From Ruminococcus sp. (GTDB lineage: Bacteria; Bacillota; Clostridia; Oscillospirales; Ruminococcaceae), in contig JAFTYF010000033.1 of NCBI GenBank assembly GCA_017461395.1, forward strand, positions 62,001-126,000: 64,000 nt of DNA, written 5' to 3'. Positions 9,490 through 62,325 of this stretch are shown piece after piece; the stretch's first letter is position 1, and every line of letters begins with the position of its first letter. Under the pieces are notes generated by a model that saw only the letters and a program-made list of their open reading frames with translations, was not told the origin of the DNA and made no database searches. Both the position numbers and the translations under genes were made by a program.

Positions 9490-9509
9490 ACGGGACGCCG
9501 TCCCCTACA
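9490..9509. repeat. GTAG-headed hairpin repeat (minus orientation)
   Basis: Read on the minus strand this is GTAG followed by GGGACGGCGTCCC, a compact hairpin of the same family as those at 37827, 50442 and 62249. It lies between the 8663 hydrolase and the murF-like gene. Confidence 0.7.
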
Positions 9510-9530
9510 ATACATTTTTAGGAGAAATAC

Positions 9531-11117
9531 ATGAATATAGCAATTTTCTGCATATATACGGCGATAACCTTTGCCGCAATACTTTTCTCATCGCTCCGTG
9601 AGTTCCATATGCTTCAGCTGAACGGCTACAAAACACCGGAGCATTCATGGTGGATGAAGAAGAATTTCAAGAGATATATTCTTCCGGCTAAGCTTTTTGC
9701 AGTTCAGTTCATACTGCTTCTATTTTCTACGAAAACAGCAATGCGTATAATGATTATTGTACTGGCAGTCTTTAATATTTTCATAATCATAAAAAACAAG
9801 CCCGGTAAGAAATTTAAGAAGCCTCTTGTATACACCGCAAGAGTAAAGCGGATGATGACGACTTTCTGGATTCTTGCCGCACTTATAACAGGTGCCGGTA
9901 TACTGATATCCGGCGGAAAGCCTGATTCTCCGTGGATGTATATTTACATCGGCTCTGCACTCTACCTCACACCGATTCTTGTACCGCTTTCAAACATCTG
10001 CAACAAGCCGATCGAAAAGGCAGTACAGAACTGGTACATCAACGATGCAAAGCGTATTTTAAGCGAAATGCCGTCGCTCCACAAGGTCGGAATCACCGGA
10101 AGCTACGGCAAGACATCCATGAAATTCTACCTCAGCGAGCTTCTCGGCTCTCAGTATGATACGCTGAAAACTCCCGAAAGCTTCAATACACCTATGGGCG
10201 TTACGATAACGATACGCCGTGACCTCAGACCTACAAATGAATATTTCATCTGCGAAATGGGCGCAAGACGTGTCCGTGAAATCAACGAGCTCTGCGAAAT
10301 AGCTCATCCTCATGACGGTATCATCACATCCGTCGGACCTCAGCATCTTGAGACTTTCGGTTCTGTCGAGAACGTACTCAATACGAAATTCGAGCTTGCC
10401 GACAGCGTTCAGGCGGCTGGCGGAAAAATTTACCTCAACGGCGACAACGAGCTTATCAGAAGCCGTGCCCCTAAGTACAAGGGCGCAATCCTCTACGGAA
10501 CAACAGAGGGCTGTGATTACCGTGCGTCTGATGTCTCAGTTTCCGACAAGGGAACGGAATTCACAATGACTGCACCTGACGGCGAAAGCTGCCGCTTCAC
10601 AATGAAGCTTCTCGGTGAGCACAGCGTACAGAACGTAGTCGGAGCTATCGCATATGCTCACGGAACAGGAATTCCGCTTGAAAAGCTTGTTCTTCCCGTT
10701 AAGAGAATCGCCGCTGTTCCGCACAGATTACAGCTTCTTGACAAGGGCGGCGACATCACCTTCATCGACGACGCATATAATTCAAATCCGAGCGGATGCC
10801 GTGCGGCGCTCAATGTGCTTGGACTTTTCGACGCCTGCAAGATACTTGTCACTCCCGGAATGGTCGAGCTTGGCGCAAAGCAGGAAGAACTCAATTTTGA
10901 ATTCGGACAGGAAGCCGCCGCAGTCTGCGACTATATCGCTCTTGTCGGAAAAAATCAGACAGTGCCTATCTACAACGGCATAAAGGCTGCCGGCTATGAT
11001 ATGAACAAGGTGTTTGTTGCAGATTCACTCGGCGAAGCGCTTGACAACGTGCGCAGATATCAGACGGACAAGAAGAAGATAGTCCTTCTGGAAAACGATC
11101 TGCCCGATAATTACTGA
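9531..11117 (+). CDS. Membrane-anchored Mur ligase family protein (MurF-like)
   Basis: This 528-residue protein joins a membrane domain to a Mur ligase. About four or five hydrophobic segments fill residues 1-160 (FCIYTAITFAAILFSS, LFAVQFILLLF, MIIVLAVFNIFIII, FWILAALITGAGILI, WMYIYIGSALYLTPILV). The ATP-binding loop GITGSYGKTSMKFYL starts at residue 187, followed by TPESFNTPMGVT, FICEMGARRVREI and FIDDAYNSNPSGCRAAL, all MurF hallmarks. MurF adds D-Ala-D-Ala to the UDP-MurNAc-tripeptide. Classical MurF is soluble and starts with a substrate-binding domain, which is missing here. Ddl, which makes D-Ala-D-Ala, lies two genes downstream. The ribosome binding site is AGGAG. Confidence 0.88.
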   Translation: MNIAIFCIYTAITFAAILFSSLREFHMLQLNGYKTPEHSWWMKKNFKRYILPAKLFAVQFILLLFSTKTAMRIMIIVLAVFNIFIIIKNKPGKKFKKPLVYTARVKRMMTTFWILAALITGAGILISGGKPDSPWMYIYIGSALYLTPILVPLSNICNKPIEKAVQNWYINDAKRILSEMPSLHKVGITGSYGKTSMKFYLSELLGSQYDTLKTPESFNTPMGVTITIRRDLRPTNEYFICEMGARRVREINELCEIAHPHDGIITSVGPQHLETFGSVENVLNTKFELADSVQAAGGKIYLNGDNELIRSRAPKYKGAILYGTTEGCDYRASDVSVSDKGTEFTMTAPDGESCRFTMKLLGEHSVQNVVGAIAYAHGTGIPLEKLVLPVKRIAAVPHRLQLLDKGGDITFIDDAYNSNPSGCRAALNVLGLFDACKILVTPGMVELGAKQEELNFEFGQEAAAVCDYIALVGKNQTVPIYNGIKAAGYDMNKVFVADSLGEALDNVRRYQTDKKKIVLLENDLPDNY

Positions 11118-11167
11118 TGTACTAAGATAAAATTCGGCAAAACGATGTCGCTATAAAGGAGAAAATA

Positions 11168-11557
11168 ATGTACGAAAAAATCATGATATTAGTCGGTGCT
11201 GCCGGACTTATTGTCGGGATAGTTCTGTTTTTAGGAGCCAGACGTTCTGCAAAGGAATCCGAAAGTGTGGCGGCAGAGATCACTGAACTGCGAAAGAGTA
11301 AGTACGGTATTGTTCCTGTAGTTAAATATGAGAAAAACAACCGTGAATATAAAGCCGTTCATTTCCATCGCCCTATCTCACCGGATAAAAATTATTCTGT
11401 CGGCGATAAGGTCGTTGTGAATGTGGTCTCCGGCACTAAGAATGAATTCTATTTTACCGACGAGGAAGCATTATATTCTTCCTACGGACTGCAATTTGTT
11501 TTTGGCGGCGTTATGTGCCTTATTATCGGCATTATTCTGCATATTGCACTTGCTTGA
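11168..11557 (+). CDS. DUF3592-like membrane protein
   Basis: This 129-residue protein has an N-terminal membrane helix (IMILVGAAGLIVGIVLFLG) and a C-terminal one (FGGVMCLIIGIILHIAL). Between them is a beta-rich extracytoplasmic stretch (KYGIVPVVKYEKNNREY, YSVGDKVVVNVV, NEFYF). This is the architecture of DUF3592 proteins, whose function is unknown. The start follows AAAGGAG. It lies between the murF-like gene (gap 50 nt) and ddl (gap 38 nt) on the same strand, so it may take part in wall synthesis, but that is position only. Confidence 0.75.
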   Translation: MYEKIMILVGAAGLIVGIVLFLGARRSAKESESVAAEITELRKSKYGIVPVVKYEKNNREYKAVHFHRPISPDKNYSVGDKVVVNVVSGTKNEFYFTDEEALYSSYGLQFVFGGVMCLIIGIILHIALA

Positions 11558-11595
11558 TAGAGTACCAATAAATTTATATAAGGAGAGATACATAT

Positions 11596-12783
11596 ATGAA
11601 AATCAATCTTGCAGTTTTATTCGGCGGAAAGAGCGTTGAACATGAGGTTTCGGTAATTTCCGCAGTTCAGGCTATGGCAAGCATGAATAAGGAAAAATAC
11701 AATATCATTCCCGTTTACATGACAAAGGGAAATGAGTTCTATACAGGCGAAAAGCTCATGGATATCAATTCATTCAAGGACATTCCGGCGCTCCTGAAGG
11801 AATCTACAGAGTGTGTTTTCGTGAGAAGCGAGGGGAAAGTCCAGCTTATCCGCCAGAAGATGAAGAAGTTCGGCTCTAACGTTATTTCAGACGTTGACGT
11901 TGCATTCCCTATCGTTCACGGTACAAACGTTGAGGACGGCGCACTTCAGGGATATCTCCAGACTCTCGACCTCCCCTACGTCGGCTGTGATGTACTTTCA
12001 TCCGCAGTGGGAATGGACAAATTCGTGATGAAGATACTTCTTAAAGACGCAGGATTTCCCGTACTCGACTGCTGCCGTTTCTCCTCATACGATATGGACA
12101 AAATAGAGGAACTTATCGCTCAGGTTGAGGGAAAATTCAGCTATCCCGTTATTGTAAAGCCTATAAATCTTGGTTCAAGCGTAGGAATTTCCAAAGCGTC
12201 CGACCGCAGAGGACTTGAAAAGTCTATCGAGGAAGCATTTGAGTTCGCAGACAGAATTCTCGTTGAGCCGGCTGTAGTTCAGCTTAAGGAAATCAACTGC
12301 TCCGTATGCGGCGACAGCGAATCAGCAGAAGCCTCTGTATGCGAAGAACCTGTACAGCAGGATGAAATTCTCAGCTACAAGGATAAGTATGTCGGCGGCG
12401 GAAAATCCGGCGGCAGCAAGGGTATGGCTACGCTGAAAAGAAAGATTCCGGCTGAAATTACTCCCGAACAGGAGGAAACGGTGCGCAGGACAGCCGTTGA
12501 AGCATTCCGTTACCTCGGATGCTCCGGTGTTGCAAGAATCGACTTCATGCTTGACAAGGCAACTCAGAAAATATACATTAACGAGATAAATACAATTCCC
12601 GGTTCGCTTTCATTCTATCTTTGGGAACCTAAGGGAGTTAAATATACAGAACTTCTTGAGCGCATGATACAGCTTGCTCTCAAACGCCACAGACAGGCAG
12701 CAAAGATAAGCTACACATTTGAAACGAACATCCTCTCAATGGGCGGAAGCTTCGGTTCAAAAGGCTGCAAGGGCAAGGCATAA
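11596..12783 (+). CDS. ddl: D-alanine--D-alanine ligase
   Basis: The 395-residue ATP-grasp enzyme joins two D-alanines in the cytoplasm. It shows LFGGKSVEHEVSVISAVQAM, the HGTNVEDGALQGYLQTL motif, VGCDVLSSAVGMDK, the ATP-binding VIVKPINLGSSVGISKA, and the metal-binding INEINTIPGSLSFY. Between about 235 and 285 it has an acidic, cysteine-containing stretch (CSVCGDSESAEASVCEEP) before the loop YVGGGKSGGSKGMA. I expect this to be longer than in the E. coli enzymes. The ribosome binding site is AGGAGA. Together with the upstream MurF-like ligase it covers synthesis and attachment of the terminal dipeptide of the wall precursor. Confidence 0.94.
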   Translation: MKINLAVLFGGKSVEHEVSVISAVQAMASMNKEKYNIIPVYMTKGNEFYTGEKLMDINSFKDIPALLKESTECVFVRSEGKVQLIRQKMKKFGSNVISDVDVAFPIVHGTNVEDGALQGYLQTLDLPYVGCDVLSSAVGMDKFVMKILLKDAGFPVLDCCRFSSYDMDKIEELIAQVEGKFSYPVIVKPINLGSSVGISKASDRRGLEKSIEEAFEFADRILVEPAVVQLKEINCSVCGDSESAEASVCEEPVQQDEILSYKDKYVGGGKSGGSKGMATLKRKIPAEITPEQEETVRRTAVEAFRYLGCSGVARIDFMLDKATQKIYINEINTIPGSLSFYLWEPKGVKYTELLERMIQLALKRHRQAAKISYTFETNILSMGGSFGSKGCKGKA

Positions 12784-12820
12784 AATATACTCACAGGATA
12801 ATCAGAAGGAGGGTTAAAAA

Positions 12821-13393: not shown

Positions 13394-13467
13394 TTGAATT
13401 TACATTTTGTATATCAGGAATGTGATCAATGGCGCTCATTATTCCTTAAATTATCGAGGTAGTATCA

Positions 13468-14310: not shown

Positions 14311-14311
14311 A

Positions 14312-15697: not shown

Positions 15698-15743
15698 CTT
15701 CGGTTTTATGGTTATACTTCTATAGGAGTTTTTATGTGCATAA

Positions 15744-18277: not shown

Positions 18278-18300
18278 TGTAGAGGCGAACTGTGTTCGCC
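18278..18300. repeat. GTAG-headed hairpin repeat (plus orientation)
   Basis: TGTAGAGGCGAAC, a 3-nt loop and GTTCGCC make a GTAG-headed hairpin with the same stem as 50392-50418. It lies in the gap between the convergent ppk1 and 18312 genes. Confidence 0.7.
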
Positions 18301-18311
18301 CGTTGTTTTGC

Positions 18312-19644: not shown

Positions 19645-19672
19645 CGGGATATCGAGACGCCGTCCTCTACAA
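19645..19672. repeat. GTAG-headed hairpin repeat (minus orientation), diverged
   Basis: Read on the minus strand: GTAGAGGACGGCGTC, TC, GATATCCCGC. It matches the 37827 and 62249 copies with changes in the 3' arm. A short AT-rich repeat (ATTATGAATTATGAAT) follows, as beside other copies. The rest of the gap 19532-19756 shows nothing else. Confidence 0.65.
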
Positions 19673-29182: not shown

Positions 29183-29205
29183 GGACCACCATTGGGCGTC
29201 CCTAC
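29183..29205. repeat. GTAG-headed hairpin repeat (minus orientation)
   Basis: Read on the minus strand: GTAGGGACGCCCAATGGTGGTCC. It matches the 37782, 48460 and 50494 copies. It directly abuts the dnaJ stop. Confidence 0.68.
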
Positions 29206-29206
29206 A

Positions 29207-34122: not shown

Positions 34123-34144
34123 TGTAGGGGCACCGCCGGCGCCC
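34123..34144. repeat. GTAG-headed hairpin repeat in the hrcA leader (plus orientation)
   Basis: TGTAGGGGCACCGCCGG and CGCCC make a hairpin (GGGCACC/GGCGCCC, one mismatch). It touches the CIRCE element and lies in the 5' untranslated region of hrcA. A short AT-rich repeat (TTCATAATTCGTAATT) adjoins it. Confidence 0.68.
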
Positions 34145-35772: not shown

Positions 35773-37260
35773 ATGACGTGCCCTCAGTGCGGCAACGAGA
35801 ATCCGCCTAAACTTAAATTCTGCGTATCATGCGGAACCAATCTCGAAAATCCGCAGGAAGTAAATTACGAACAGGTGGACATGGGAAATTACCATTCCGA
35901 AGAAGAACAAAGCTCCGGCGGCTTCAGCATGAGTACCGGAACCTTTACTATCTGCGATAATACGCGATATTCCGAATCATCTTCCGATTTCTACACCGCT
36001 GACGAACTCAACAGTGATGAGGAAGAATTTGATTTCAGCAGCTATGATGAACCTTTCATTCCGAAGCTTGATGCCGACAGACTTTCCCTCCCCTCTATGG
36101 AAAGATCTGCGCCGCAGTCTGTTCCCCAGCCTGCACCTCAGCCGCAGGGAATGTACGGCTACCCTCAGCCGCAGCAGCCTTACGGTCAGCCTCCTATGGG
36201 CGGAATGTCTCAGCCAATGGGAGGTATGCCTCAGCCGCAGATAATCGGCTACGATCAGAACGGAATGCCGATATATGGTCAGGCACAGCCTATGATGTAT
36301 CCACAGCCGCAGATAATCGGCTATGATCAGAACGGAATGCCGATATACGGTCAGGCACAGCCTATGATGTACCCTCAGCCGCAGATAATCGGCTATGATC
36401 AGAACGGAATGCCGATATACGGTCAGGCACAGCCTATGATGTACCCTCAGCCGCAGCTGATCGGCTATGATCAGAACGGAATGCCGATATACAATCAGGC
36501 GCCTGTTATGATGTATCCTCAGCAGCCTGTTCAGCCTATGCAGGGCGATATGCCTGGTATGGCTCCTATGGGCGGAATGTACGGTATGCCTCCAATGGGA
36601 GGTATGCAGCAGCCTTATGGTCAGCCGCAGCAGCCTGTTCAGAACAGACCTGCAGGAAACGGCAGAGTTGAGGTTTCTGATGATTTCTGGAAATTTTTCG
36701 ACGGCGGAAAGGCTTCCGACCACAAGGACAGCGATGATTTCTTCGGCAAAAGCGATATGGGCGATGTGTCCGCTGATAATCTTGATGTCAGCCGTCTTAA
36801 GCGCTTTGAACGCAAAAAGAACGACTATATGAGCGATACTCCTCTCGTTGACGGCTCTCAGCTCGCTGCCAATACAGAAGCTAAGTACAACAAGCTCTAT
36901 ATGAAGCCGACTGAAACTGTAAACGCTGAAGAACTTCAGGCAAAAGAGAAAGAACATACACAGGATATAATGAGCGTTACAAAGGACGTTAACGCTGATA
37001 AAATTCAGGAATATAAGCATTATAAATCAAGAATTTCAATGGAAAATACTGAGGATGCCGACGCCGGCGAGCTTGAAGCATATACCCCTGAGCATACAGA
37101 GGCTATAATGGAACAGGCAGATCACGCTGTTGAGGCTCTGCCGAAGAAAAAAACTACATACGTTGACGAGATCGACGCAATAGAGCTTCCGGATTATATG
37201 CAGGCTAAAAAGACCGTCCACGAAGAAACTCCGCAGATACCTGATCTGCCGGAAGTATAA
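35773..37260 (+). CDS. Zinc-ribbon protein with tandem 24-residue repeats
   Basis: I cannot name this 495-residue protein. It starts with a zinc ribbon (CPQCGNENPPKLKFCVSCG). An acidic serine-rich region (30-110) and a Pro/Gln/Gly/Met-rich region (110-290) follow. The latter holds four near-identical 24-residue repeats, IIGYDQNGMPIYGQAQPM plus MYPQPQ, at residues 157-252, flanked by PQPQ and GGMPQ motifs. The C-terminal part has acidic helical segments with a repeated motif: VNAEELQAKEKEHTQDIM and ADAGELEAYTPEHTEAIM. There is no signal peptide or membrane helix. The ribosome binding site is AAAAAGGAG and the gene has its own promoter. The repeats suggest a multivalent scaffold, which is inference. 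Confidence 0.85.
   Translation: MTCPQCGNENPPKLKFCVSCGTNLENPQEVNYEQVDMGNYHSEEEQSSGGFSMSTGTFTICDNTRYSESSSDFYTADELNSDEEEFDFSSYDEPFIPKLDADRLSLPSMERSAPQSVPQPAPQPQGMYGYPQPQQPYGQPPMGGMSQPMGGMPQPQIIGYDQNGMPIYGQAQPMMYPQPQIIGYDQNGMPIYGQAQPMMYPQPQIIGYDQNGMPIYGQAQPMMYPQPQLIGYDQNGMPIYNQAPVMMYPQQPVQPMQGDMPGMAPMGGMYGMPPMGGMQQPYGQPQQPVQNRPAGNGRVEVSDDFWKFFDGGKASDHKDSDDFFGKSDMGDVSADNLDVSRLKRFERKKNDYMSDTPLVDGSQLAANTEAKYNKLYMKPTETVNAEELQAKEKEHTQDIMSVTKDVNADKIQEYKHYKSRISMENTEDADAGELEAYTPEHTEAIMEQADHAVEALPKKKTTYVDEIDAIELPDYMQAKKTVHEETPQIPDLPEV
36241..36528 (+). repeat. Four tandem 72-bp in-frame repeats
   Basis: Units begin at 36241, 36313, 36385 and 36457, each starting ATAATCGGCTAYGATC (fourth unit CTGATCGG). 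The first three differ by only a few third-position changes; the fourth diverges at its end. The period is an exact multiple of three. Confidence 0.95.
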
Positions 37261-37781: not shown

Positions 37782-37855
37782 TGTAGGGACGATCATTGGG
37801 CGTCCGTGATGATTTATTGATTATTTGTGGGATGTCGAGACGCCGTCCCCTACAA
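37782..37855. repeat. Two GTAG-headed hairpin repeats, one in each orientation
   Basis: The plus copy is TGTAGGGACGATCATTGG with CGTCCG (37782-37806). The minus copy, read in reverse, is GTAGGGGACGGCGTC, TC, GACATCCCAC (37827-37855). They are divergent, tail to tail. An AT-rich tandem (ATTCCGCATTCCGAATT) follows at 37891-37924. Confidence 0.75.
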
Positions 37856-37924
37856 TCGGTCATTTAAAATATCGCCCCGTCAGGGAAACCATAATTCCGC
37901 ATTCCGAATTCCGCATTCCGAATT

Positions 37925-37967
37925 AAAACAGCGCACGGGAACGTGAATTTGGTGCAGCGTCACGCTG
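37925..37967. repeat. Copy of the GCAGCGTGACGCTGC repeat family
   Basis: CGGGAACGTGAATTTGG followed by TGCAGCGTCACGCTGT matches the reverse complement of the 61827-61896 copies. It sits directly upstream of the SRP RNA promoter. Confidence 0.72.
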
Positions 37968-38053: not shown

Positions 38054-38195
38054 TAAATTCCGAAATATAGATGTGTGGGCCCTGTGCAACAAGACCCCGT
38101 GAACCATGTCAGGCGGGAGACCGAGCAGCATTAAGCGGTGCGTGTTGTGTGCCGCAGTAAGCCTGCACATCTATGTTCCGGAATTTTTTGTTATG
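38054..38195 (+). ncRNA. ffs: Bacterial signal recognition particle RNA
   Basis: The conserved SRP domain is present: GTGAACC at 38099-38105, ATGTCAGG, then GGGAGACCGAGCAGC. The apical hairpin carries these loops, and an outer stem pairs AAATTCCGAAATATAG with CTATGTTCCGGAATTT, ending in TTTTTT. The RNA binds Ffh (20178 here). It is about 140 nt, so a small-type SRP RNA without the Alu-like extension of Bacillus. The outer stem and T-run also act as terminator. The predicted promoter start is about 40 nt upstream, so a leader may be trimmed. It lies directly before dnaX, the usual Firmicutes location. Confidence 0.93.
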
Positions 38196-48344: not shown

Positions 48345-48459
48345 GAAAAATAAAATATCCCGACGTCCCGCAATGATTTTAATTCGGATTTCTGAATGCG
48401 TAATTCGTAATTATGATGTCGGCATTCGCCGGCGGATTAAAAAAATTCCGGAAACAATT

Positions 48460-48532
48460 GCAGGGACGCCCATTGGGTGTCCGCAGAGAAAACAATTCAT
48501 GAAATTTACACGGGCGCACACATGGGTGCACC
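48460..48532. repeat. Two hairpin repeats of the GTAG-type family (variant heads)
   Basis: GCAGGGACGCCCATTGGG with TGTCCGC (48460-48484) has head GCAG instead of GTAG. GGGCGCACACATGGGTGC with ACC (48512-48532) has no head. AT-rich repeat GTAATTCGTAATTATG lies nearby (48401-48416). They fill the divergent gap between cysE and the CE2 gene; no gene is seen there. Confidence 0.6.
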
Positions 48533-48633: not shown

Positions 48634-50334
48634 ATGAAAAATAAAAAAATTGCTGCTTCGGCAGGCTGTATTCTTGCCTGCACGGCACTGACGGTAGGCA
48701 GCGTTTCCTCCGCACAGAGAACGACAGATGACCTCGTTCATCTCAGAAATGCTCTGCTCCGTGAGGGAGAAATGACAAAGGACGATGATATTGACGGTGA
48801 CGGTGTTGTTGATATTTTCGACATGGTACAGCTCAGACAGCAGCTTGCACAGACCGGTGAACAGAATACAGGCGATTTTGCGGCGGTTGCAAAGAATGTA
48901 AAGCTTGTCGGACGTACCCTCAGAGAAGGCGATATCACATGGCTCGTGCAGAGCGGCTCAGCAGTGAAATTCACTGTTTCAGCAAGCGAAGCAACGGTTA
49001 CTCTTGCGGGAGACAGCTCCATAGGCAACGACAGGGATTTCCGTTCACGTTATGCTGTTCTCGTTGACGGCGAAGTTCTTGTGGACGACGTTATGAGCGA
49101 GGAAGAAAAGAATATCACCATTTTCAGCGGAAATACAATGAAAACTGCTGAGATTACTGTTATCCACCTTTCAGAGGCAAATAACGGCGCTGTCGGCGTA
49201 AAGAACATCAATGTGAAGTCCTCAGCGGCAAAGCCTGTCGTACCTGTTCCGGAAAAGGATATAAAAATAGAGTTTATAGGCGACTCTATCACCTGCGCAT
49301 ACGGCGTTGAAGGACAGTCCTCGGGAGAATCCTTCAAGACAACTACTGAGAACTTCATGAAATCATACGCATACCTTACTGCACAGCTTCTTGATGCGGA
49401 TTACAGCGCTGTTTCGTACAGCGGTCACGGAATAATTTCCGGCTATACATCCGGCGAAAAGAATACAGACCAGCTTGTTCCGGACTTCTATGAGAGTATC
49501 GGAAAGTGGCAGTACGAAAAGCCGTGGGATTTCTCATCCGCTGAAAACGACGTTGTTGTGATAAATCTCGGCACAAACGACAACAGCTACCTCCAGAACA
49601 AGCCGGAGGGCGGCGACGCTGACTTTATCAAGGGATATATTGAGTTCCTCGGCATGGTGCGCAAGCACAATCCTAATGCGCATATCATCTGTACAATGGG
49701 AACTATGGGCGGAAACGACGTCGTATATCCCCTTATCGAGGAAGCAGTGAAGCAGTTCGGTGATGAAAAGGTGACGTGCTATGAATCAGTTACGCAGAAT
49801 ATCCAGATGGACGGCATAGGCTCTGACTGGCATCCATCGGCTGTAACTCAGCAGAACAGTGCATATGTTCTTGCTGACAAGATCTGTCAGGCTCTTGGAA
49901 TTGAGTCCTCACAGATAGGTCTTGACGTTGCCGTTGATTCTGAGTACAAGCTTGTTACTGATCCTGATCTCGGCGGAAACTGCTATGCATATCTCAACGA
50001 TTACGATAAATCCTTCTGGCTGACGAACTACTCAGGCGGAAGCGCTCCGGAGGCTCTTGAAGCTGTTATTGCTCCTGTCGGACTCAAAAAAGACGGTGTA
50101 TATCAGCTTAAATTCGACTGGACAGCCGGTGCGGAATCCGAAGTTCCTCTTATTGTGAGAAGCGGCGGAAAGGTTATCTATGAAGATACGATAAGCTGCG
50201 GCGCAGAGACTATCCACTATGAGAAGGAATTTACCTGCCCTGAGGCTTGTGAGGCTGAGGTTGTATTCCAGATAGGCGGCTATGACAGCGGAAGATTTAC
50301 AATACAGAACTTCAAGCTTGTCAAGACAAAATGA
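48634..50334 (+). CDS. Secreted CE2-family SGNH esterase with an N-terminal half dockerin
   Basis: This 566-residue secreted enzyme has a signal peptide (MKNKKIAASAGCILACTALTV). Residues 30-71 follow, with one calcium loop (D52-I-D-G-D-G-V-V-D-I-F-D63) after a helix DDLVHLRNALLR. This looks like the last helix of a first dockerin repeat plus a full second repeat. A jelly-roll domain (about 85-205) and an SGNH domain come next, with nucleophile Ser218 in FIGDSITCAYG, VVINLGTNDNSY and His400 in GSDWHPSAVT. That is the CE2 layout of deacetylases acting on xylan or glucomannan. The last ~130 residues resemble a carbohydrate-binding beta domain. AGGAG precedes the ATG at 48634. Confidence 0.88.
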   Translation: MKNKKIAASAGCILACTALTVGSVSSAQRTTDDLVHLRNALLREGEMTKDDDIDGDGVVDIFDMVQLRQQLAQTGEQNTGDFAAVAKNVKLVGRTLREGDITWLVQSGSAVKFTVSASEATVTLAGDSSIGNDRDFRSRYAVLVDGEVLVDDVMSEEEKNITIFSGNTMKTAEITVIHLSEANNGAVGVKNINVKSSAAKPVVPVPEKDIKIEFIGDSITCAYGVEGQSSGESFKTTTENFMKSYAYLTAQLLDADYSAVSYSGHGIISGYTSGEKNTDQLVPDFYESIGKWQYEKPWDFSSAENDVVVINLGTNDNSYLQNKPEGGDADFIKGYIEFLGMVRKHNPNAHIICTMGTMGGNDVVYPLIEEAVKQFGDEKVTCYESVTQNIQMDGIGSDWHPSAVTQQNSAYVLADKICQALGIESSQIGLDVAVDSEYKLVTDPDLGGNCYAYLNDYDKSFWLTNYSGGSAPEALEAVIAPVGLKKDGVYQLKFDWTAGAESEVPLIVRSGGKVIYEDTISCGAETIHYEKEFTCPEACEAEVVFQIGGYDSGRFTIQNFKLVKTK

Positions 50335-50346
50335 GCGCTGCTTAAT

Positions 50347-50418
50347 GCGGACAAATGGGCATCCGCAGCGTGTCGGTAAACATAATTTTTTGCGGGCGAA
50401 CATAGTTCGCCCCTACAT
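50347..50418. repeat. Hairpin repeats, one GTAG-headed
   Basis: GCGGACAAATGGGCATCCGC (50347-50366) has no GTAG head. The copy at 50392-50418 reads on the minus strand GTAGGGGCGAAC, loop, GTTCGCCCGC and is a strong hairpin. They follow the CE2 stop and may serve as terminators. Confidence 0.68.
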
Positions 50419-50441
50419 TTATAATGCGTAAAATAGCCATC

Positions 50442-50516
50442 TGTAGGGGACGGCGTCTTCGACGTCCCACAAAACAGAGGTTTTTGGAAAGTCTGGGGAC
50501 GCCCATTGGGCGTCCG
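50442..50516. repeat. Two more hairpin repeats before the P-loop kinase gene
   Basis: TGTAGGGGACGGCGTC, TTC, GACGTCCCAC (50442-50470) is a plus-strand GTAG copy. TGGGGACGCCCATTGGGC with GTCCG (50494-50516) keeps the stem but has lost the GTAG head. The second ends 22 nt before the next ATG. Confidence 0.7.
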
Positions 50517-50537
50517 TATGTTTATGGAGGAAAAATT

Positions 50538-51026
50538 ATGGCTGATGTTGTACTTATCTGCGGCAGGATATGCAGCGGAAAATCGTTCTATGCCAAAAAT
50601 CTTGCGGAGAAAATGAGTGCTGTAACGCTCTCGTGCGACGAGGTTTCCGCCGATATCTTCCACCACAGCGAAGGCGAGAATTTCGACACAATAGCCGCCG
50701 ATATCAAGAGGTATCTCCATAAAATAGCCGCAAGAATTGTGAAAGCCGGAGGAAAAGTTGTCCTTGACTGGGGATTCTGGACAAAAAATGAGCGCCGTGA
50801 GGTCTCGGAGTATTACGCCGACCTTGGGATTCCCTTCGAATGGCATTATATAAGCATACCGGCTGACGAGTGGCAGAGAAATATCGAACTCCGGAATTCC
50901 TCGGTTCTTGCCGGAGAAACTACGGATTTCTATGTGGATGAGGGGCTTATGCAGAAGCTTCTTGCCGGCTTTGAGGATCCTGAGCGTGACGAAATAGATG
51001 TCTGGCACGAGTTTAAAAGATTATAA
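50538..51026 (+). CDS. P-loop kinase-like ATPase (AAA_33/zeta-toxin-like fold)
   Basis: The 162-residue protein has a Walker A motif VLICGRICSGKSFYAKNLA, a Walker B-like KVVLDWGFWTKNERREV, and a lid region with WQRNIELRNSS. It resembles small stand-alone kinases of the AAA_33 group, related to polynucleotide, chloramphenicol and zeta-toxin-type kinases. The substrate is unknown and no antitoxin is adjacent. The ATG at 50538 follows TGGAGGAAA; the frame upstream to 50424 is made of repeat sequence. It lies between two cellulosomal genes on the same strand, probably by chance. Confidence 0.82.
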   Translation: MADVVLICGRICSGKSFYAKNLAEKMSAVTLSCDEVSADIFHHSEGENFDTIAADIKRYLHKIAARIVKAGGKVVLDWGFWTKNERREVSEYYADLGIPFEWHYISIPADEWQRNIELRNSSVLAGETTDFYVDEGLMQKLLAGFEDPERDEIDVWHEFKRL

Positions 51027-55968: not shown

Positions 55969-57915
55969 TTATCTTACTTTCTTAGCAATATCGTCGATAA
56001 GCTTTGCAAGGAGATCGTTCTGTGTCATTGAGCCGAGATCGCCCTCACGTCTTGAACGGACGGAAACTGTTCCCTCCTCGACTTCCTTATCGCCGATTGT
56101 GAGCATTACAGGAAGCTTTTCCATTGTTGCGCTGCGTATCTTCCAGCCAACCTTTTCAGCACGATCGTCGATAGAAGCACGGATTCCTGCTGCGCTGAGC
56201 TTTTCAAGAACTTCTCTGCCGTAGTCAAGATGACGGTCAGCAACGGGAATGATACGAACCTGTTCGGGAGACATCCAGAGCGGAAGTGCTCCTGCGTACT
56301 TTTCGATGAGGTAAGCAAGAGTTCTTTCATAGCAGCCGAGTGATGTTCTGTGGATGATGTAAGGTCTGCGCTTTGAGCCGTCAACGTCAACGTACTCCAT
56401 GCCGAACTTTTCAGCAAGAAGCATATCAATCTGGATTGTAACGATAGTATCTTCCTTGCCGAATACGTTTTTATACTGAATGTCAAGCTTAGGACCGTAG
56501 AATGCGGCTTCGTCAATACCGATAGTATAGTTTACGCCGAGATTGTCAAGAATCTTTGCCATGATTCCCTGAGCTTCTTCCCACTGTTCAGCAGTTCCCT
56601 CGTACTTGTTCTTCGGGTTTGCGGGATCCCACTGTGAGAAGCGGAATGTACAGTCCTCAAGCATTCCGACTGTGTCAAGAACATACTTTGCAAGCTCCAG
56701 ACAGCCCTTGAATTCTTCTTCAAGCTGCTCAGGACGGAGAATGAGATGTCCCTCAGAAATTGTGAACTGACGTACACGGATAAGACCATGCATTTCGCCG
56801 GAATCCTCATTTCTGAAAAGTGTGGATGTTTCGCCGAGACGCATAGGAAGATCACGGTATGAACGCTGTCTGTTCAGGAAAACCTGATACTGGAAAGGAC
56901 AGGTCATCGGACGGAGCGCAAAACATTCCTTTGTTTCATCGTGGGGATCGCCGAGAACAAACATACCGTCTAGGTAGTGATCCCAGTGACCGGAAATCTT
57001 ATAAAGCTCTCTCTTAGCCATGAGCGGAGTTTTTGTGAGAAGATAGCCTCTCTTCTGCTCCTCATCCTCAATCCAGCGCTGAAGAACCTGAATTGTTCTT
57101 GAACCCTTGGGGAGAAGGATCGGAAGTCCCTGACCTATGCAGTCAACTGTTGTGAAATATTCAAGCTCACGTCCGAGCTTGTTGTGGTCACGGAGCTTTG
57201 CTTCCTCACGCTGCTTGATATCAGCTTCAAGGTCAGCAGCCTTGGGATATGCTGTTGCATATACACGGGAAAGCATCTTGTTCTTCTCTGAACCTCTCCA
57301 GTATGCGCCTGTGCATGAGAGAAGTTTGAATGCCTTTACGGGAGCTGTTGTCATAAGGTGCGGACCTGCGCAGAGATCAACAAACTCGCCCTGCTTGTAG
57401 AATGAGATCGGCTCGCCGTTGTCTGCGTGTTCCTGACAGAGTTCAACCTTGTAAGGCTCGCCCATTTCCTCAAGCTTTGCGATAGCTTCAGCCGGAGAAA
57501 GCTCGAACTGCTCCAGAGCAATTCCTTCCTTGACGATCTTCTTCATTTCAGCCTCGATTTTTTCAAGTTCCTCGGGAGAGAAAGGCTTTTCAAGGTCGAA
57601 ATCGTAGTAGAAACCGTTGTCGATAGCCGGTCCGATAGCAAGCTTAGCTTCGGGGTAAAGACGCTTTACAGCCTGTGCAAGAATGTGTGACGCTGTGTGC
57701 CAGAATGTCTTTTTGCCCTCGATTGAATCGAATGTGCATACCTCGAATTCGCAGTCACTATCGATTACTGTGCGGAGATCCTTTACCTCTCCGTTGATTT
57801 TTACGCAGCATGAAGCCTTGTAAAGTCCCATACCGATGCCCTTGATTATTTCGCTTGCGGGCATAGCAGCTTCGATTTCACGGATGCTGCCGTCTTTAAG
57901 TGTTAATTTGATCAT
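55969..57915 (-). CDS. thrS: Threonyl-tRNA synthetase
   Basis: The 648-residue class II synthetase has an N-terminal TGS domain (IKLTLKDGSIREIEAAMPASEIIKGI) and an editing domain with HTASHILAQAVKRLYP and the zinc-type FVDLCAGPHLMTT. The catalytic core has the zinc cysteine in FALRPMTCPFQYQVF, motif 2 LPMRLGETSTLFRNEDSGEMHGLIRVRQF and motif 3 GCYERTLAYLIEKYAGALPLWMSPEQ, followed by the anticodon domain. The ATG at 57915 follows AAAGGAG. A T-box lies about 290 nt upstream, separated by a transposase relic. Confidence 0.97.
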   Translation of the reverse strand: MIKLTLKDGSIREIEAAMPASEIIKGIGMGLYKASCCVKINGEVKDLRTVIDSDCEFEVCTFDSIEGKKTFWHTASHILAQAVKRLYPEAKLAIGPAIDNGFYYDFDLEKPFSPEELEKIEAEMKKIVKEGIALEQFELSPAEAIAKLEEMGEPYKVELCQEHADNGEPISFYKQGEFVDLCAGPHLMTTAPVKAFKLLSCTGAYWRGSEKNKMLSRVYATAYPKAADLEADIKQREEAKLRDHNKLGRELEYFTTVDCIGQGLPILLPKGSRTIQVLQRWIEDEEQKRGYLLTKTPLMAKRELYKISGHWDHYLDGMFVLGDPHDETKECFALRPMTCPFQYQVFLNRQRSYRDLPMRLGETSTLFRNEDSGEMHGLIRVRQFTISEGHLILRPEQLEEEFKGCLELAKYVLDTVGMLEDCTFRFSQWDPANPKNKYEGTAEQWEEAQGIMAKILDNLGVNYTIGIDEAAFYGPKLDIQYKNVFGKEDTIVTIQIDMLLAEKFGMEYVDVDGSKRRPYIIHRTSLGCYERTLAYLIEKYAGALPLWMSPEQVRIIPVADRHLDYGREVLEKLSAAGIRASIDDRAEKVGWKIRSATMEKLPVMLTIGDKEVEEGTVSVRSRREGDLGSMTQNDLLAKLIDDIAKKVR

Positions 57916-57947
57916 GATATTTTTCTCCTTTATAAATTTTTTTATAA

Positions 57948-58189
57948 TTATTCCGGAAAATAACAGGACAAATCGTCGTTTTCCCAATTTGCCGGATTTT
58001 CTTCTATGTATCGCCAATATGCCGCATATTCATTTTCATTGCGGATGATGCAGGCATTGCCCCTACATATTTTGTATAATCCCAAAAATAATGTTGTTTA
58101 TTCTTGATACAAACGGTCACGAAATACGCGCCATTCCTGCTGTAATCGTATCCATGAAGCCGGATTGATTTCTGTACAGGCACATTCAT
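57948..58189 (-). pseudogene. Internally deleted REP-associated tyrosine transposase (RAYT/Y1) relic
   Basis: An N-terminal piece starting at 58189 encodes KSIRLHGYDYSRNGAYFVTVCIKNKQHYF, the typical start of REP-associated (IS200-like) transposases. A C-terminal piece in another frame, ending at the TAA at 57948-57950, encodes ACIIRNENEYAAYWRYIEENP and ANWENDDLSCYFPE, the typical end. The middle, including the HUH histidines and catalytic tyrosine, is missing. The pieces meet near 58053-58066 at GTAGGGGCAATGCC, which carries the same GTAGGGGC head as the dispersed hairpins. It is non-functional and lies inside the thrS leader. Confidence 0.82.
58053..58066 (-). repeat. GTAGGGGC motif at the RAYT deletion junction
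   Basis: On the minus strand GTAGGGGCAATGCC lies where the N- and C-terminal transposase pieces meet. It shares the head of the dispersed hairpin repeats but has only a minimal stem (GGC/GCC). Confidence 0.5.
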
Positions 58190-58208
58190 ATTATCACTCA
58201 CAAAAACA

Positions 58209-58443
58209 AAAAATCGCCCCTCATGCCCATAAAAAGGCTCAAGGGACGATAATTTACCGTGATTCCACCCTGATTCACACGGAGACAAAGACTCCGTATC
58301 TCATTGGCTCTGTAACGGGAGCTGCCGGCGTGTATTGGACGCACTCAGAGAGGGTGTGCATATTTTCTGCTTTGCAGCCTCGCACCAGCCGGCTGCTCTC
58401 TGAAAAAAGCGCTGAAAACTGCCTTTCTCATCAACGATTTATG
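58209..58443 (-). promoter_or_regulatory. T-box riboswitch (threonine) of thrS
   Basis: On the minus strand a stem I starts near 58443. It has the conserved CAGAGAGC and GGCTGGTGCGAGGC segments. Arms GCAGTTTTCAGCGCTTT and AAAGCAGAAAATATGC pair, followed by ACACCC (complement of 58352-58357), which holds the threonine codons ACA and ACC as specifier candidates. A stem ACGGAG/CTCCGT follows. The T-box sequence AGGGTGGAATCACGG is at 58271-58257. The terminator pairs ATCGTCCCTTGAGCC with GGCATGAGGGGCGAT before TTTTTTG (58250-58209). Uncharged tRNA-Thr would stabilise the antiterminator. Confidence 0.9.
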
Positions 58444-58458
58444 ATATGTTCAATTATG

Positions 58459-58487
58459 ATGATACCACAACTGACCTTATTTGTCAA
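58459..58487 (-). promoter_or_regulatory. SigA-type promoter of the T-box/thrS transcript
   Basis: On the minus strand TTGACA (58487-58482), 17 nt, TATCAT (58464-58459), 8 nt after the murA stop codon. Confidence 0.85.
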
Positions 58488-58495
58488 GTGTTTTT

Positions 58496-59797
58496 TCAGA
58501 CTGCTGCTCTGGAATTATCAGTTTCGGCTGTCTTATTATCGGGAACGCTTATCTTTTCGATATCAGCGCCGAGTGCACGAAGCTTTCCTTCCATGCAGTC
58601 GTAGCCTCTTTCGATATGGAAGATATCCTCGATTTCGGTGATTCCGTTAGCAGCAAGACCAGCTATGATAAGAGCTGCTCCGGCTCTGAGGTCGCAAGCC
58701 TTTACAGGAGCGCCCATAAGCTTTCCGGTACCCTCGATAAGAGCAACCTTGCCATTTACGGTAATATCTGCGCCCATACGTCTGAGCTCGTCCACATAGC
58801 GGAAGCGCTGTTCCCAGACGCCCTCAGTAACGATACTTGTTCCCTCAGCGAGGATAAGCAGCGTAGCTATCTGCGGCTGCATATCTGTCGGGAAACCGGG
58901 GTGAGGAGTAGTCTTGACATTTGCCTTTACGAGAGGTCCGTCAACCCATACTCTCATGCTGTCGTCGTACTGTTCGATATTTACGCCGATTTTTTCAAGC
59001 TTTTTTGTAATTGATTCAAGATGCTTAGGGATAATATTTTCAACAATGATATCACCCTTTGTTGCTGCGGCAGCGATCATGAAAGTTCCTGCCTCGATCT
59101 GGTCGGGGATAACAGAGTAAGTTGTACCGTGGAGCTGTTTTACGCCTCTGATCTTGATAACATCAGTTCCGGCGCCCATAATATTTGCGCCCATAGAGTT
59201 GAGAAAATTCGCAAGATCAACGATATGAGGCTCTTTAGCCGCATTTTCGATAACGGTAAGTCCTTCTGCCTTTACAGCTGCGAGCATTGCATTCATTGTA
59301 GCTCCTACTGTAACGACGTCGAAGAATATCTGGTTTCCTCTGAGCTTGTCTGCCTTGAGGTCAATCATTCCCTGACTGAGAGTATACTCAGCGCCAAGTG
59401 CAGAGAAAGCCTTAAGGTGCTGGTCGATCGGACGGTCACCGAGAGGACATCCTCCGGGCATTGATACTCTTGCCTTATTGAATTTTCCTAAAAGTGCTCC
59501 GAGGAAATAGTATGAAGCACGCATTTTTCTTGCCGTTTCATATGGAACGCATACCTTGTTAATGCCGGTAGGATCAATTCTGTAAATATCCTTGCCGAGA
59601 TTTTCAACCTCTGCGCCCATTTCTCTGAGTATTTTAAGGCAAATATTGACGTCGCTTATATTGGGAACGTTCTCAATGATACACGGCTCATCAGACAGGA
59701 TTACAGCAGGAAGAATAGCCACAGCCGCATTTTTTGCTCCGCTGATAACGACATTGCCGGTAAGACGTCTGCCGCCCTTTATTACAAACTTATCCAA
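58496..59797 (-). CDS. murA: UDP-N-acetylglucosamine 1-carboxyvinyltransferase MurA
   Basis: The 433-residue enzyme makes the first committed peptidoglycan precursor. It starts LDKFVIKGGRRLTGNVVISGAKNAAVAILPA. The catalytic, fosfomycin-sensitive cysteine is in MPGGCPLGDRPIDQHLKAF, and PTDMQPQIATLL and EGVWEQRFRYVDELRRMGA follow. The start is TTG at 59797, 9 nt after AAGGAG; the longer frame lacks a site and overlaps the cyclophilin gene. It lies about 60 nt downstream of the cyclophilin lipoprotein gene and may be co-transcribed with it. No hairpin terminator separates it from the thrS promoter. Confidence 0.96.
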   Translation of the reverse strand: MDKFVIKGGRRLTGNVVISGAKNAAVAILPAVILSDEPCIIENVPNISDVNICLKILREMGAEVENLGKDIYRIDPTGINKVCVPYETARKMRASYYFLGALLGKFNKARVSMPGGCPLGDRPIDQHLKAFSALGAEYTLSQGMIDLKADKLRGNQIFFDVVTVGATMNAMLAAVKAEGLTVIENAAKEPHIVDLANFLNSMGANIMGAGTDVIKIRGVKQLHGTTYSVIPDQIEAGTFMIAAAATKGDIIVENIIPKHLESITKKLEKIGVNIEQYDDSMRVWVDGPLVKANVKTTPHPGFPTDMQPQIATLLILAEGTSIVTEGVWEQRFRYVDELRRMGADITVNGKVALIEGTGKLMGAPVKACDLRAGAALIIAGLAANGITEIEDIFHIERGYDCMEGKLRALGADIEKISVPDNKTAETDNSRAAV

Positions 59798-59858
59798 ACA
59801 AATTCTCTCCTTAATTGCCGGAATATATAATTCCGATCTTTTTTCTTTTATTCTACTT

Positions 59859-60815
59859 TCAGTTTTCATCAGAAGCTTCTGTCTTTTTTTCTGTATCTGA
59901 AGCTCCGTCCATGTAATCAGCGATGAACCATTTAAGCTCCTCGCCCTCATATTTTCCTACTTTCACATATTCAAGAACAACAGGCTTAGCAGGAGTGCTC
60001 ACCTCTGCGCTGAACGCATTGCCCTGATATACCTCTACGTCCTGAACTGCAAAAATTATATCAAGTCCTTCATAAACCTGACCGAAAACGGTATATCCGC
60101 CGTCAAGCCACGGTGCACCGCCGGCTGTTGCAAGAACTTTCTTGATATCGTCGGAGAATGAATATCCGTTTGCTTCAAGCATTCCGAGATATTCGTCATC
60201 ATAAACTTCTCCGGTAACGATGTAGAACTGACTTCCGTTTGTTGAAGTTGCTCCGCTGTTTGCGTATGCGATAGTTCCTGCGGCGTGAGTAAGCTTATCG
60301 GAAACACCGCCGTCAAACTTTTCGCCCCAGATAGATTCGCCGCCGGTACCTGTACCGAGAGGATCACCGCCCTGAATCATGAAATCAGCCATAATTCTGT
60401 GGAATGTAAGTCCATCGTAGTATCCTTTTTCAGCAAGACCAACGAAATTTTCAACGCCAAGCTCAGCGTATTCAGGGAAAAGTCTGATCTTTACTTCGCC
60501 CTCATAGTCCTTGAATTTCATAATGATGATATCATCGCCGACCTCTGGAGCTGTGAAATTCTTGATCGAAGCGTTTTCAAGATCAATATCCGGAACTGAT
60601 CTGTCAGCAAATCTCGAAAGATCTATAGTGCCGTCTGCCGCAGAAACCGCAGTATTTCCGGCTGCAGCTGGAGAAGTTTCATCCTCTTTGTTCTCAGCTG
60701 CCTCCTCAGACGAACTGCTGCTCTTATCGTCGGTGTCGATATCCTTTCCGCATGAAGTAACTGCCGCTGCCGTCATAACTGTACAGAGCAGTGCAGCTAA
60801 TATTCTTTTAAACAT
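59859..60815 (-). CDS. Cyclophilin-type peptidyl-prolyl isomerase lipoprotein
   Basis: The 318-residue protein is a lipoprotein (FKRILAALLCTVMTAAAVTSC with the lipobox cysteine). A low-complexity acidic and serine linker (about 22-65) leads to a cyclophilin domain (about 95-275). The catalytic-site pattern is intact: GLTFHRIMADFMIQGGDPLGTGTGG with the arginine, then AYANSGATSTNGSQFYIV. It would assist folding of exported proteins at the membrane face. ATG 60815 lies 8 nt after AAGGAG; GTG 60824 overlaps that site. Confidence 0.92.
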   Translation of the reverse strand: MFKRILAALLCTVMTAAAVTSCGKDIDTDDKSSSSSEEAAENKEDETSPAAAGNTAVSAADGTIDLSRFADRSVPDIDLENASIKNFTAPEVGDDIIIMKFKDYEGEVKIRLFPEYAELGVENFVGLAEKGYYDGLTFHRIMADFMIQGGDPLGTGTGGESIWGEKFDGGVSDKLTHAAGTIAYANSGATSTNGSQFYIVTGEVYDDEYLGMLEANGYSFSDDIKKVLATAGGAPWLDGGYTVFGQVYEGLDIIFAVQDVEVYQGNAFSAEVSTPAKPVVLEYVKVGKYEGEELKWFIADYMDGASDTEKKTEASDEN

Positions 60816-60871
60816 AAATTTCACTCCTTAATTTTTCGTGAAACAAGAAATCGCTGTATCTCAACCTGTTT

Positions 60872-60900
60872 ATTATACTACAATATTTCTGATTTGTAAA
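60872..60900 (-). promoter_or_regulatory. SigA-type promoter of the cyclophilin lipoprotein gene
   Basis: On the minus strand TTTACA (60900-60895), 17 nt, TATAAT (60877-60872). Confidence 0.82.
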
Positions 60901-60971
60901 TAGTTTCCGCTTAAATTTGTAGGAATCAGTCAAACTGCCGGTGAAACTCACGGAATATTCGTAAAGCGTGA

Positions 60972-61766
60972 CTATTTTTCCGCATTTTCTTCTGATGAAT
61001 ACTCTTCTATTCTGACAGAGCGTATCTTTACATCAGCCGTAGGAGTACAGAATTTTCCCGTATCCTTTCCCTCCAGTGCGGAAAGCTTTTCGATAACCTC
61101 AAAGCCCTCGTATGTTTGTCCGATAATCGTCATCTGCTGTGAGAAATTAGGTATTCCGCCCTTTTCGATAAAAGCGTCGGCAAGCTCTGCGCTGGCTGAG
61201 CTTTCCTTTAAATCGCTGATAATATCTTCTGTGAATTCAATCGAATTGAGAATATAGAAGCGGCTTCCGTTATAGTATGTTCCGCCGCCGAGAACTTTTT
61301 CCTTGAAAGTACGGACATAGTCGGTCTGGACCATGCAGACTGCGCCTCTGAAAGGCCATAGATCCTGATGAAGCTCACGCTCGATATGTTCGTTTGTAGT
61401 TTTTCCGACAGAGCCGTTTTTCGCCGGAGTTCCGCCGCCGAAGTATTTTCCTTCCCGCGACTCAAAAACGTAGGTATCATCATAATAGCCGGATTTTGCA
61501 AGCTCCATGAAATTTCTGACAGCCTCCGGTGAACGTTCAGGATAAAGCACCATGCGGATTTCGCCCTCTGTCGTATCTATCACAGCTATCGGATCGCCGT
61601 CCTTTGGCTTTTCAAGCTGAACAAGCTCCATTGTATCCGGATTTACAACGATGTATATGTTATTTTTTTCTCGCTGTCCTGCCGCATACAGAAGTGCTAT
61701 CGTAAGCGTTCCCATTACAAGCGTCAGAATAAGAATAACCTTGAGCAGTCTTTTTCCCTCGTTCAT
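60972..61766 (-). CDS. Membrane-anchored cyclophilin-like protein with a degenerate active site
   Basis: The 264-residue protein has an N-terminal membrane anchor (LLKVILILTLVMGTLTIALLYAAG) and an outer cyclophilin fold (VIDTTEGEIRMVLYPERSPEAVRNFMELAKSGYYDD). The canonical FHRxxxxFMxQGGD stretch reads YVFESREGKYFGGGTPAKNG, so the catalytic Arg-Phe/Gln arrangement is not conserved. GSRFYILNSIEF replaces the usual NGSQFFI segment. It probably evolved into a binding or scaffold protein, or a weak isomerase. It has its own promoter and lies directly upstream of its intact paralogue. Confidence 0.87.
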   Translation of the reverse strand: MNEGKRLLKVILILTLVMGTLTIALLYAAGQREKNNIYIVVNPDTMELVQLEKPKDGDPIAVIDTTEGEIRMVLYPERSPEAVRNFMELAKSGYYDDTYVFESREGKYFGGGTPAKNGSVGKTTNEHIERELHQDLWPFRGAVCMVQTDYVRTFKEKVLGGGTYYNGSRFYILNSIEFTEDIISDLKESSASAELADAFIEKGGIPNFSQQMTIIGQTYEGFEVIEKLSALEGKDTGKFCTPTADVKIRSVRIEEYSSEENAEK

Positions 61767-61797
61767 ATTTATACCTCTTTATCTGTATTCTTATTCA

Positions 61798-61826
61798 ATT
61801 ATACCCTTTATTCCAACATTTGTCAA
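61798..61826 (-). promoter_or_regulatory. SigA-type promoter of the degenerate cyclophilin gene
   Basis: On the minus strand TTGACA (61826-61821), 17 nt, TATAAT (61803-61798). The -35 directly abuts a GCAGCGTGACGCTGC repeat. Confidence 0.88.
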
Positions 61827-62024
61827 GCAGCGTGACGCTGCACCCAGTTCACGTTCCCATGGCAGCGTGACGCTGCACCCAACTCACGTTCCCGTGCGCA
61901 TACGCACTCACTCTGTACAAGGCGGCAGTCTGCTATCGCATACGTAAGAAATCAAAGGCACCAGCGGTGCCCTCGTCCCACGTTTCCGTGGAAGCGTGAC
62001 GCTGCACCCAGTTCACGTTCCCAT
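61827..62024. repeat. Cluster of three GCAGCGTGACGCTGC repeats
   Basis: Copies at 61827-61859, 61862-61895 and 61993-62024 share the near-palindrome GCAGCGTGACGCTGC, then ACCCAGTTCACGTTCCC. The first two are direct neighbours. A fragment (GCGTGACGCT) recurs near 62106. Between them lie small palindromes (TGCGCATACGCA, GGCACCAGCGGTGCC). No gene is seen in 61830-62190. Confidence 0.85.
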
Positions 62025-62193
62025 GTGCGTTCCGCACATTCCTCTGTACGTTGCTGAACTTGCCATTCGCTCGTGGGAACAAATTTTATGCCGTTAATTT
62101 TTAAATGCGTGACGCTACAGTATGTGTAAAAAATATATAGGCAATGTAAGGTGCGATGCCCACATCTCACCGCAGAAAAATTACGTTCATAAC

Positions 62194-62220
62194 GGGCGGA
62201 TGCAAGCATCCGCCCCTACA
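62194..62220. repeat. GTAG-headed hairpin repeat (minus orientation), perfect stem
   Basis: Read on the minus strand: TGTAGGGGCGGATGC, TT, GCATCCGCCC. The 10-bp stem is perfect. Confidence 0.78.
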
Positions 62221-62248
62221 CAATGATACCAAAATTCAAATGACCGAT

Positions 62249-62325
62249 TGTAGGGGACGGCGTCTCGACGTCCCACATGATTCCGATGAAATTTCAAGTG
62301 CGTACACATGAGTTCGCCACTACAG
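62249..62325. repeat. Two further GTAG-headed repeats
   Basis: TGTAGGGGACGGCGTC, TC, GACGTCCCAC (62249-62276) is on the plus strand. The minus-strand copy at 62299-62325 reads GTAGTGGCGAACTC, then ATGTGTACGCAC, and is diverged. An AT-rich tandem (GCATTACGCATTACGAATT) follows at 62355-62380. Confidence 0.75.

Follow-up and report, generated by a model that had tools for sequence, protein, structure and literature searches.

What scatters hairpins with one constant head and many different stems over a bacterial genome? The question is raised by a 64,000-nucleotide stretch of a Ruminococcus sp. genome (GenBank assembly GCA_017461395.1, contig JAFTYF010000033.1, positions 62,001 to 126,000 of the forward strand; hereafter the window), which belongs to an assembly of 2.08 Mb in 80 contigs that is 93% complete. 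A prior reading of the letters alone (the sequence-only reading) had noted short GTAG-headed hairpins throughout this window and likened them to repetitive extragenic palindromes (REPs), the elements handled by REP-associated tyrosine transposases (RAYTs, or TnpA_REP). The answer that we regard as probable is that these hairpins are GTAG-type REPs left by several RAYTs with differing stem preferences, since each related RAYT gene carries its own inverted, in-frame pair of hairpins with one particular stem. On a further step we are nearly evenly balanced, with a slight leaning in its favor: that the enzyme core and the hairpin pair serving as its own target form a swappable identity cassette within one reading frame, exchanged together at fixed addresses, such that each swap would relabel both the enzyme and its repeats, and generations of REPs would accumulate with a constant head and changing stems.

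All 16 places singled out in the window hold a hairpin or a hairpin-like stem, and 12 of them are GTAG-headed hairpins or clear derivatives; because many lie on the minus strand, the start reported earlier is often the hairpin tail. At least five stems had been claimed behind the common head, and we find at least six types in the genome. The GACGGCG/CGACGTC stem occurs at 19645..19671 (minus strand, head GTAGAGG), 37829..37854 (minus; previously placed at 37827), 50442..50468 (plus), and 62249..62274 (plus), and in shortened form at 9490..9509 (minus). The stem GCGAAC/GTTCGC is found at 18278..18302 (plus, head GTAGAGG, with a core as in the RAYT gene L081) and 50392..50417 (minus), GGATGC/GCATCC at 62194..62220 (minus), and GCACCGCCGGCGCC at 34123..34144 (plus). 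CATTGG-type stems, in which GACGCCC or GACGACC occurs with CATTGG, lie at 29183..29206 (minus) and 37782..37806 (plus); GCGCACCC is a further type in the genome, and a degenerate hairpin with the head GTAGTGG at 62299..62324 (minus) completes the 12. The remaining four places hold headless or variant-head relatives: a variant-head CATTGG-type stem at 48460..48483 (plus), a headless stem at 48512..48532 and a degenerate one at 50347..50367 (both given without strand), and a headless CATTGG-type stem at 50494..50516 (plus).

These hairpins are palindromes of 20 to 40 bp with an unpaired GTAG at one end, and they are more frequent than chance would have them. The window contains 4 GTAGRG heads with a stem score of at least 6, compared with a mean of 0.2 when dinucleotides were shuffled over the whole window (40 shuffles; maximum, 2) and of 0.5 when they were shuffled within 1-kb blocks (40 shuffles; maximum, 3), in a strict scan that overlooks decayed copies. 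Genome-wide, the pattern GTAGGGGN{10,20}CCC returned 42 rows versus 3 for the reversed pattern (two of the 42 overlap, and three are not REP-like), and TGTAGGGRCG returned 25 matches versus 4 in the control, with several of the 25 not being hairpins. Our collection for this genome comprises 46 REPs, namely the 42 rows minus 3 (two overlapping C8 rows and C61:43226) plus 7 from other scans; 20 of these share its most common stem, which is bulged: GACGGCGTC(C)TCGACGTCC. No Rfam family was found on the REP hairpins.

Among these 46 REPs, all 11 close pairs join one hairpin of the GACGGCG type with one of another type. They include a convergent pair in the window at 37782-37854, divergent pairs at 50392-50468 and 62194-62274, and eight more genome sites; GACGGCG is also the stem of RAYTs at the gyrB address described below. 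The relative G034 has like-with-like pairs of stem B, so mixed pairing is not a rule for the genus. The pair at 50300-50560 looks nearly identical in a relative (L056, approximately 4100-4250), where the adjoining cellulase protein is just 66% identical, which could reflect either recent transfer or strong conservation.

Full-length RAYT genes are present in congeners. Their products align over the motifs MP[ND]H[IVL]H and YI..NP, as expected of RAYT/TnpA_REP proteins, and 4er8 is the solved structure nearest to them in sequence (E = 2.2e-10). The congener frames carry an inverted pair of GTAG hairpins at two fixed positions, one before and one after the HUH motif: the left hairpin lies between strand 1 and helix A and reads VGADIIRP, VGANCVRP, VGAHSVRP, VGDGVLDVP, and others, and its inverted partner on the right follows the HUH strand and reads GRIISAPT, GRTQFAPT, GRTECAPT, or GTSRTPSPT. 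Both hairpins were identified in 28 of 30 HUH-bearing open reading frames (ORFs) from 32 genus loci, the other two having the right one only. Class-wide, both are nominally present in 47 of 58 ORFs from 70 loci, although about 5 of these 47 pairs rest on picks that are not real REPs; 1 ORF has the left hairpin only, 7 have the right only, and 3 have none. Hairpins were picked by their heads, since a strict hairpin scorer, which recovered both in 55 of 89 genes, cannot cope with the bulge in the GACGGCG stem. Partial profile matches that break near hairpins were left unused, several of them lying at contig ends or being split by insertions.

Subsequent comparisons rest on 43 distinct genus genes, defined by both heads having been found; a 44th, L251, was removed because its right-side pick lay in threonyl-tRNA synthetase (ThrRS). 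In L251 itself (G095:C107:5873-6397, minus strand), the RAYT frame continues stop-free into thrS as an open frame of 841 aa, through either a fusion or a missing stop. The reading phase of the left hairpin is 0 in 42 of the 43 genes and that of the right hairpin is 2 in 40; in the exceptions, the same kind of hairpin is read in another frame, suggesting that the constraint acts on the DNA. Compensatory changes occur at stem pairs 5 to 8 among the 28 of these genes that belong to the 23-nt class.

The two hairpins of a gene resemble one another far more than they resemble those of other genes. Left-right identity at the thrS address (22 genes) averages 0.917 within genes and 0.597 between them, and at the gyrB address (15 genes) the corresponding values are 0.936 and 0.616, with 0 of 5,000 permutations reaching the observed difference in either case; left and right are identical over 22 nt in 29 of the 43 genes. 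The distinction holds within single genomes as well: in ten genomes hand-chosen for having two or three RAYTs, own-pair identity has a mean of 0.91 (0.77 to 1.00, n = 21) and cross-pair identity a mean of 0.54 (maximum, 0.73; n = 24), with no overlap.

By downstream gene, 23 of the 43 RAYTs sit at thrS, 16 at gyrB, 3 at argJ, and 1 at none of these. A T-box lies 45 to 777 nt upstream on the same strand in all 20 of the 23 thrS-address loci that were scanned (3 calls reach the Rfam gathering score, and the 17 below it have E values of 5.5e-14 or better), and a T-box also lies upstream of L165, a class gene from outside the genus with a ThrRS-like frame behind it. Stem types alternate at a single address, with 12 at thrS and 4 at gyrB. 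Stem similarity is correlated with similarity of the middle segment, hairpin peptides excluded (rank correlation, 0.67 at thrS and 0.78 at gyrB; Mantel, 0 of 2,000), and with that of the stretch from the right hairpin to the WQ motif (0.72 and 0.63; Mantel, 0 of 2,000), and at most weakly with the N arm (-0.10 and 0.19) or the C arm (0.17 and -0.02); L257 (thrS) and L052 (gyrB) fell outside the length filter of these module tests.

Individual alleles illustrate the exchange. The proteins P0001 and P0007, like P0003 and P0015, have near-identical arms and different middles. A protein pair table, the only analysis that protein-only rows entered, contains 23 of 1,378 pairs with both arms at 0.8 or above; the middle is at 0.55 or below in 7 of these and at 0.8 or above in 12, and the 7 overlap, some rows being near-copies of others. 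Nucleotide mosaics occur at thrS and gyrB alike: identity between L254 and L074 is 0.82 to 0.93 over most of the N arm, 0.44 to 0.80 in the cassette, and 0.91 to 0.96 just past WQ, dropping again toward the unaligned spacer before thrS, and L230 combines an L232-like middle with an L219-like end and still carries, next to its new left hairpin, the decayed remains of an older one. These comparisons show that, as judged from aligned alleles, the segment that begins at the left hairpin and runs to the WQ motif is replaced as a cassette, and that stem type tracks this segment but, at most, only weakly tracks the arms. L051, considered as a break exactly at GTAG, was set aside, as what lies upstream in it is a gene that has decayed and contains stops.

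Several observations link the dispersed REPs to these genes. Of the 46 REPs, 14, covering three stem types, match in-gene hairpins of congeners letter for letter. The association was examined in 39 hand-picked genus genomes with hand-made lists of cognate stems, in-gene copies being counted as REPs: of the 28 genomes with a RAYT match (the relic described below being counted), 27 contain three or more REPs with stem A, B, or C, as against 2 of the 11 without one (p = 2.4e-6), and cognate stems are more common where the matching RAYT is present for stem A (p = 0.002) and stem B (p = 0.003). One relative has up to 122 copies of a single stem, both strands counted. Loops can agree as well: in G098, where 54 stem-B copies were counted and 38 listed, 36 of those listed share the loop of that genome's own in-gene left hairpin, one being the in-gene copy, and 15 of 19 in G013 have the loop of its own in-gene pair, two being in-gene copies. 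Several contigs of G098 (L242-L245) start with the same GC-rich stretch, behind which REPs follow; a longer repeat may be interrupting the assembly there.

The window itself contains a RAYT relic at 57948..58189 (minus strand), as the sequence-only reading had proposed. It was detected with congener RAYT proteins and a clade profile and matches P0015 over residues 1 to 50 (76% identical) and 150 to 187 (87%) and nothing between, leaving an N arm, a remnant left hairpin (GTAG at 58066), and a C arm, without the segment that holds the HUH motif and the right hairpin. The junction lies inside the left hairpin, and the short sequence ATCCGC may have provided microhomology for it. A T-box leader at 58239..58443 (RF00230, 97.8 bits), the relic, and thrS at 55969..57915 follow one another on the minus strand (58443-55969), reproducing the thrS address. 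No RAYT was found at the gyrB address of this genome, where many congeners carry another RAYT. With the gyrB address empty and the thrS relic lacking its cassette, the REPs of this genome look orphaned: the relic is the sole RAYT trace found in the 93% complete assembly, and intact RAYTs are found in congeners. Pfam Y1_Tnp (PF01797) has no matches in this genome; taken alone as a RAYT count (40 of 120 in the genus), it under-detects, given that the relic is present, and was not used for the association of REPs with RAYTs.

Most of what had been proposed for this window is borne out by these results: the REP population is linked to RAYTs through dozens of copies here, the relic, and full-length congener RAYTs with same-head hairpins, and neither parity with shuffled sequence nor a lack of RAYT genes in related genomes, the two outcomes named as grounds for abandoning it, was seen. 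Two expectations need amending. Stems were expected to match hairpins flanking RAYT genes; the matches exist, but in the genus they lie inside RAYT frames and rarely in flanks. Variable stems were called unusual for REPs; they do vary, and the congeners suggest a likely cause, namely several RAYTs with different, exchangeable hairpin cassettes.

A mechanism can be sketched by analogy with characterized TnpA_REP enzymes. Each enzyme would act on REPs that share its own stem, cleaving and spreading them, with constant C-arm residues (WQ...DH..R) probably reading the GTAG head and the swapped cassette reading stem and loop. Exchange of the pair together with the catalytic core would then switch the repeats that the enzyme spreads, such swaps presumably arising by recombination between RAYT alleles, and RAYTs at thrS would be transcribed under T-box control.

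Several observations weigh against parts of this reading. Stem C is not clearly more common with its matching RAYT (p = 0.07), several genomes have many REPs of a stem and no matching RAYT that we could find (G118 has 56 of stem A), two RAYT-less genomes have a few REPs (6 in G006 and 7 in G015), and G086 has a RAYT yet one counted REP, which is probably its in-gene copy. Where REPs lack a matching RAYT, the enzymes may be promiscuous, or the REPs may outlive enzymes and cassettes. The arm correlations are not all nil (Mantel, 55 of 2,000 for the N arm at gyrB and 118 of 2,000 for the C arm at thrS), stems are non-identical within genes L071/L075 and L068/L085, and a REP-like hairpin lies within 600 nt outside the ORF in 20 of 89 class genes scanned, all 20 outside the genus. 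Finally, the swaps extend on the right to approximately 60 nt past the right hairpin, which means that the two hairpins do not both mark their borders, and ordinary recombination between alleles would be the simplest route.

The best-surviving alternative, which we nevertheless consider unlikely, is that REPs simply inserted into permissive loops of the transposase, where general gene conversion among the genome's REP copies keeps the in-gene hairpins similar and they play no role in recognition. In-frame entry of REPs into genes is known (PMC3733652), Quentin et al. took in-gene REPs as probably neutral loop insertions (PMC6006769), and a predicted structure (mean pLDDT, 71) places the hairpin peptides in loops, at residues 84 to 91 (low confidence) and 143 to 150. 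Such insertions would sit uneasily with the nearly fixed phases of the two hairpins and with a stem type that follows the protein middle but, at most, only weakly follows the arms, and genome-wide homogenization would blur the different matched pairs that two or three RAYTs keep within one genome. We give still less credence to canonical REPtrons, in which RAYTs are flanked by REPs and in-gene copies are incidental: the 20 class genes with flanking hairpins fit such an arrangement, as does L234, a more distant RAYT type in the genus whose GTAG hairpins lie outside the conserved coding part, but it is not the arrangement of the genus RAYTs, among which 41 of the 43 have no GTAGGG head in their 600-nt flanks (2 heads in 51.6 kb), and since these genes were selected for the in-gene pair, making in-gene density a given, it is the emptiness of the flanks that is informative. 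Least probable of all is that the dispersed hairpins are mere transcription terminators or RNA stabilizers that converged on GC-rich stems and are unrelated to transposition, as one REP stem before a T run behind tex might suggest, given the constant GTAG head on one side, the paired arrangement, the 14 of 46 copies letter-identical to RAYT-gene hairpins of other genomes, and the near absence of REPs from sampled RAYT-less genomes. That stem, the headless GGGCGAACCCATGTGTTCGCCC followed by a T run (6337..6358, plus strand; Tex identified by Pfam), is terminator-like, in agreement with the sequence-only reading.

Other features accompany the REPs in the window. A separate repeat family, GCAGCGTGACGCTGCACC...CACGTTCCCGTG, occurs near them at 37931-37967 and 61815-62028, and also in L278 upstream of gyrB, at the empty gyrB site. 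Low-complexity ATTCCGAATTCCG-like repeats lie beside REPs at 37885-37928 and 48377-48420, tandem 72-nt repeats occupy 36229-36516 within an open frame (35773-37257) with a zinc-ribbon start, and Rfam identifies a bacterial small SRP RNA at 38073-38171.

The exchange of cassettes would bear on the way in which REP transposases can diversify together with their repeats and still fit them. The DNA target seems to be joined to the enzyme core in one physical cassette, and new specificities could travel as intact units, which would also offer an explanation for the mixed REP populations of gut clostridia. Natural swaps on constant arms make REP recognition testable, and, judging by the T-box/thrS and gyrB addresses, expression of the RAYTs may depend on the supply of amino acids or on supercoiling.

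Among known systems, the genes come closest to subclass 2.4 of TnpA_REP, which the available text of Quentin et al. (2018, PMC6006769) characterizes by the motifs NH[IFV]H, WQ, and YIxNNP and by in-frame REPs already known in its genes. Shared traits are the WQ motif and one resembling YIxNNP, long GTAG REPs that have three G-C pairs at the base, and in-frame in-gene REPs; in this comparison of motifs, many of the genes have DH rather than NH. In-gene REPs of subclass 2.4 are described in that text as lying generally between HuH and Y, as probably neutral, and as occurring alongside flanking REPs, whereas here the hairpins stand before and after HUH as a matched inverted pair that changes with the core, and the genus flanks are nearly REP-free. 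The dispersed hairpins share with the GTAG superfamily of Di Nocera et al. (2013, PMC3733652) the size of the palindrome and the unpaired GTAG at one end, a location mostly outside genes, frequent pairing, and several families per genome; Clostridia and Ruminococcus go unmentioned in the part of that text available, and here stem diversity maps to cassettes in RAYT genes. The TnpA_REP enzymes of Escherichia coli and Stenotrophomonas cleave single-stranded REPs via GTAG and a loop or bulge (Corneloup et al. 2021, PMC8266576), and the chemistry here is likely the same; the WQ...DH..R residues of these RAYTs align with GTAG contacts listed for E. coli (PMC6006769). RAYT genes of those REPtrons are REP-flanked, and the consulted portion of PMC8266576 does not describe an in-gene pair or cassette exchange. 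We found no account of the matched pair, cassette exchange, or the T-box/gyrB addresses in the open-access literature, supplements not being covered, so that the pair may appear in figure S10 of Quentin et al. An IS200/IS605 mobile element moves as a unit with its ends outside the gene; the RAYTs described here sit at fixed addresses. Type I restriction specificity genes (hsdS) diversify by domain shuffling, in which a recognition module is swapped between conserved arms of one gene. The likeness is one of working principle and not of family membership, and in the RAYTs described here the swapped module would also hold the enzyme's own DNA targets.

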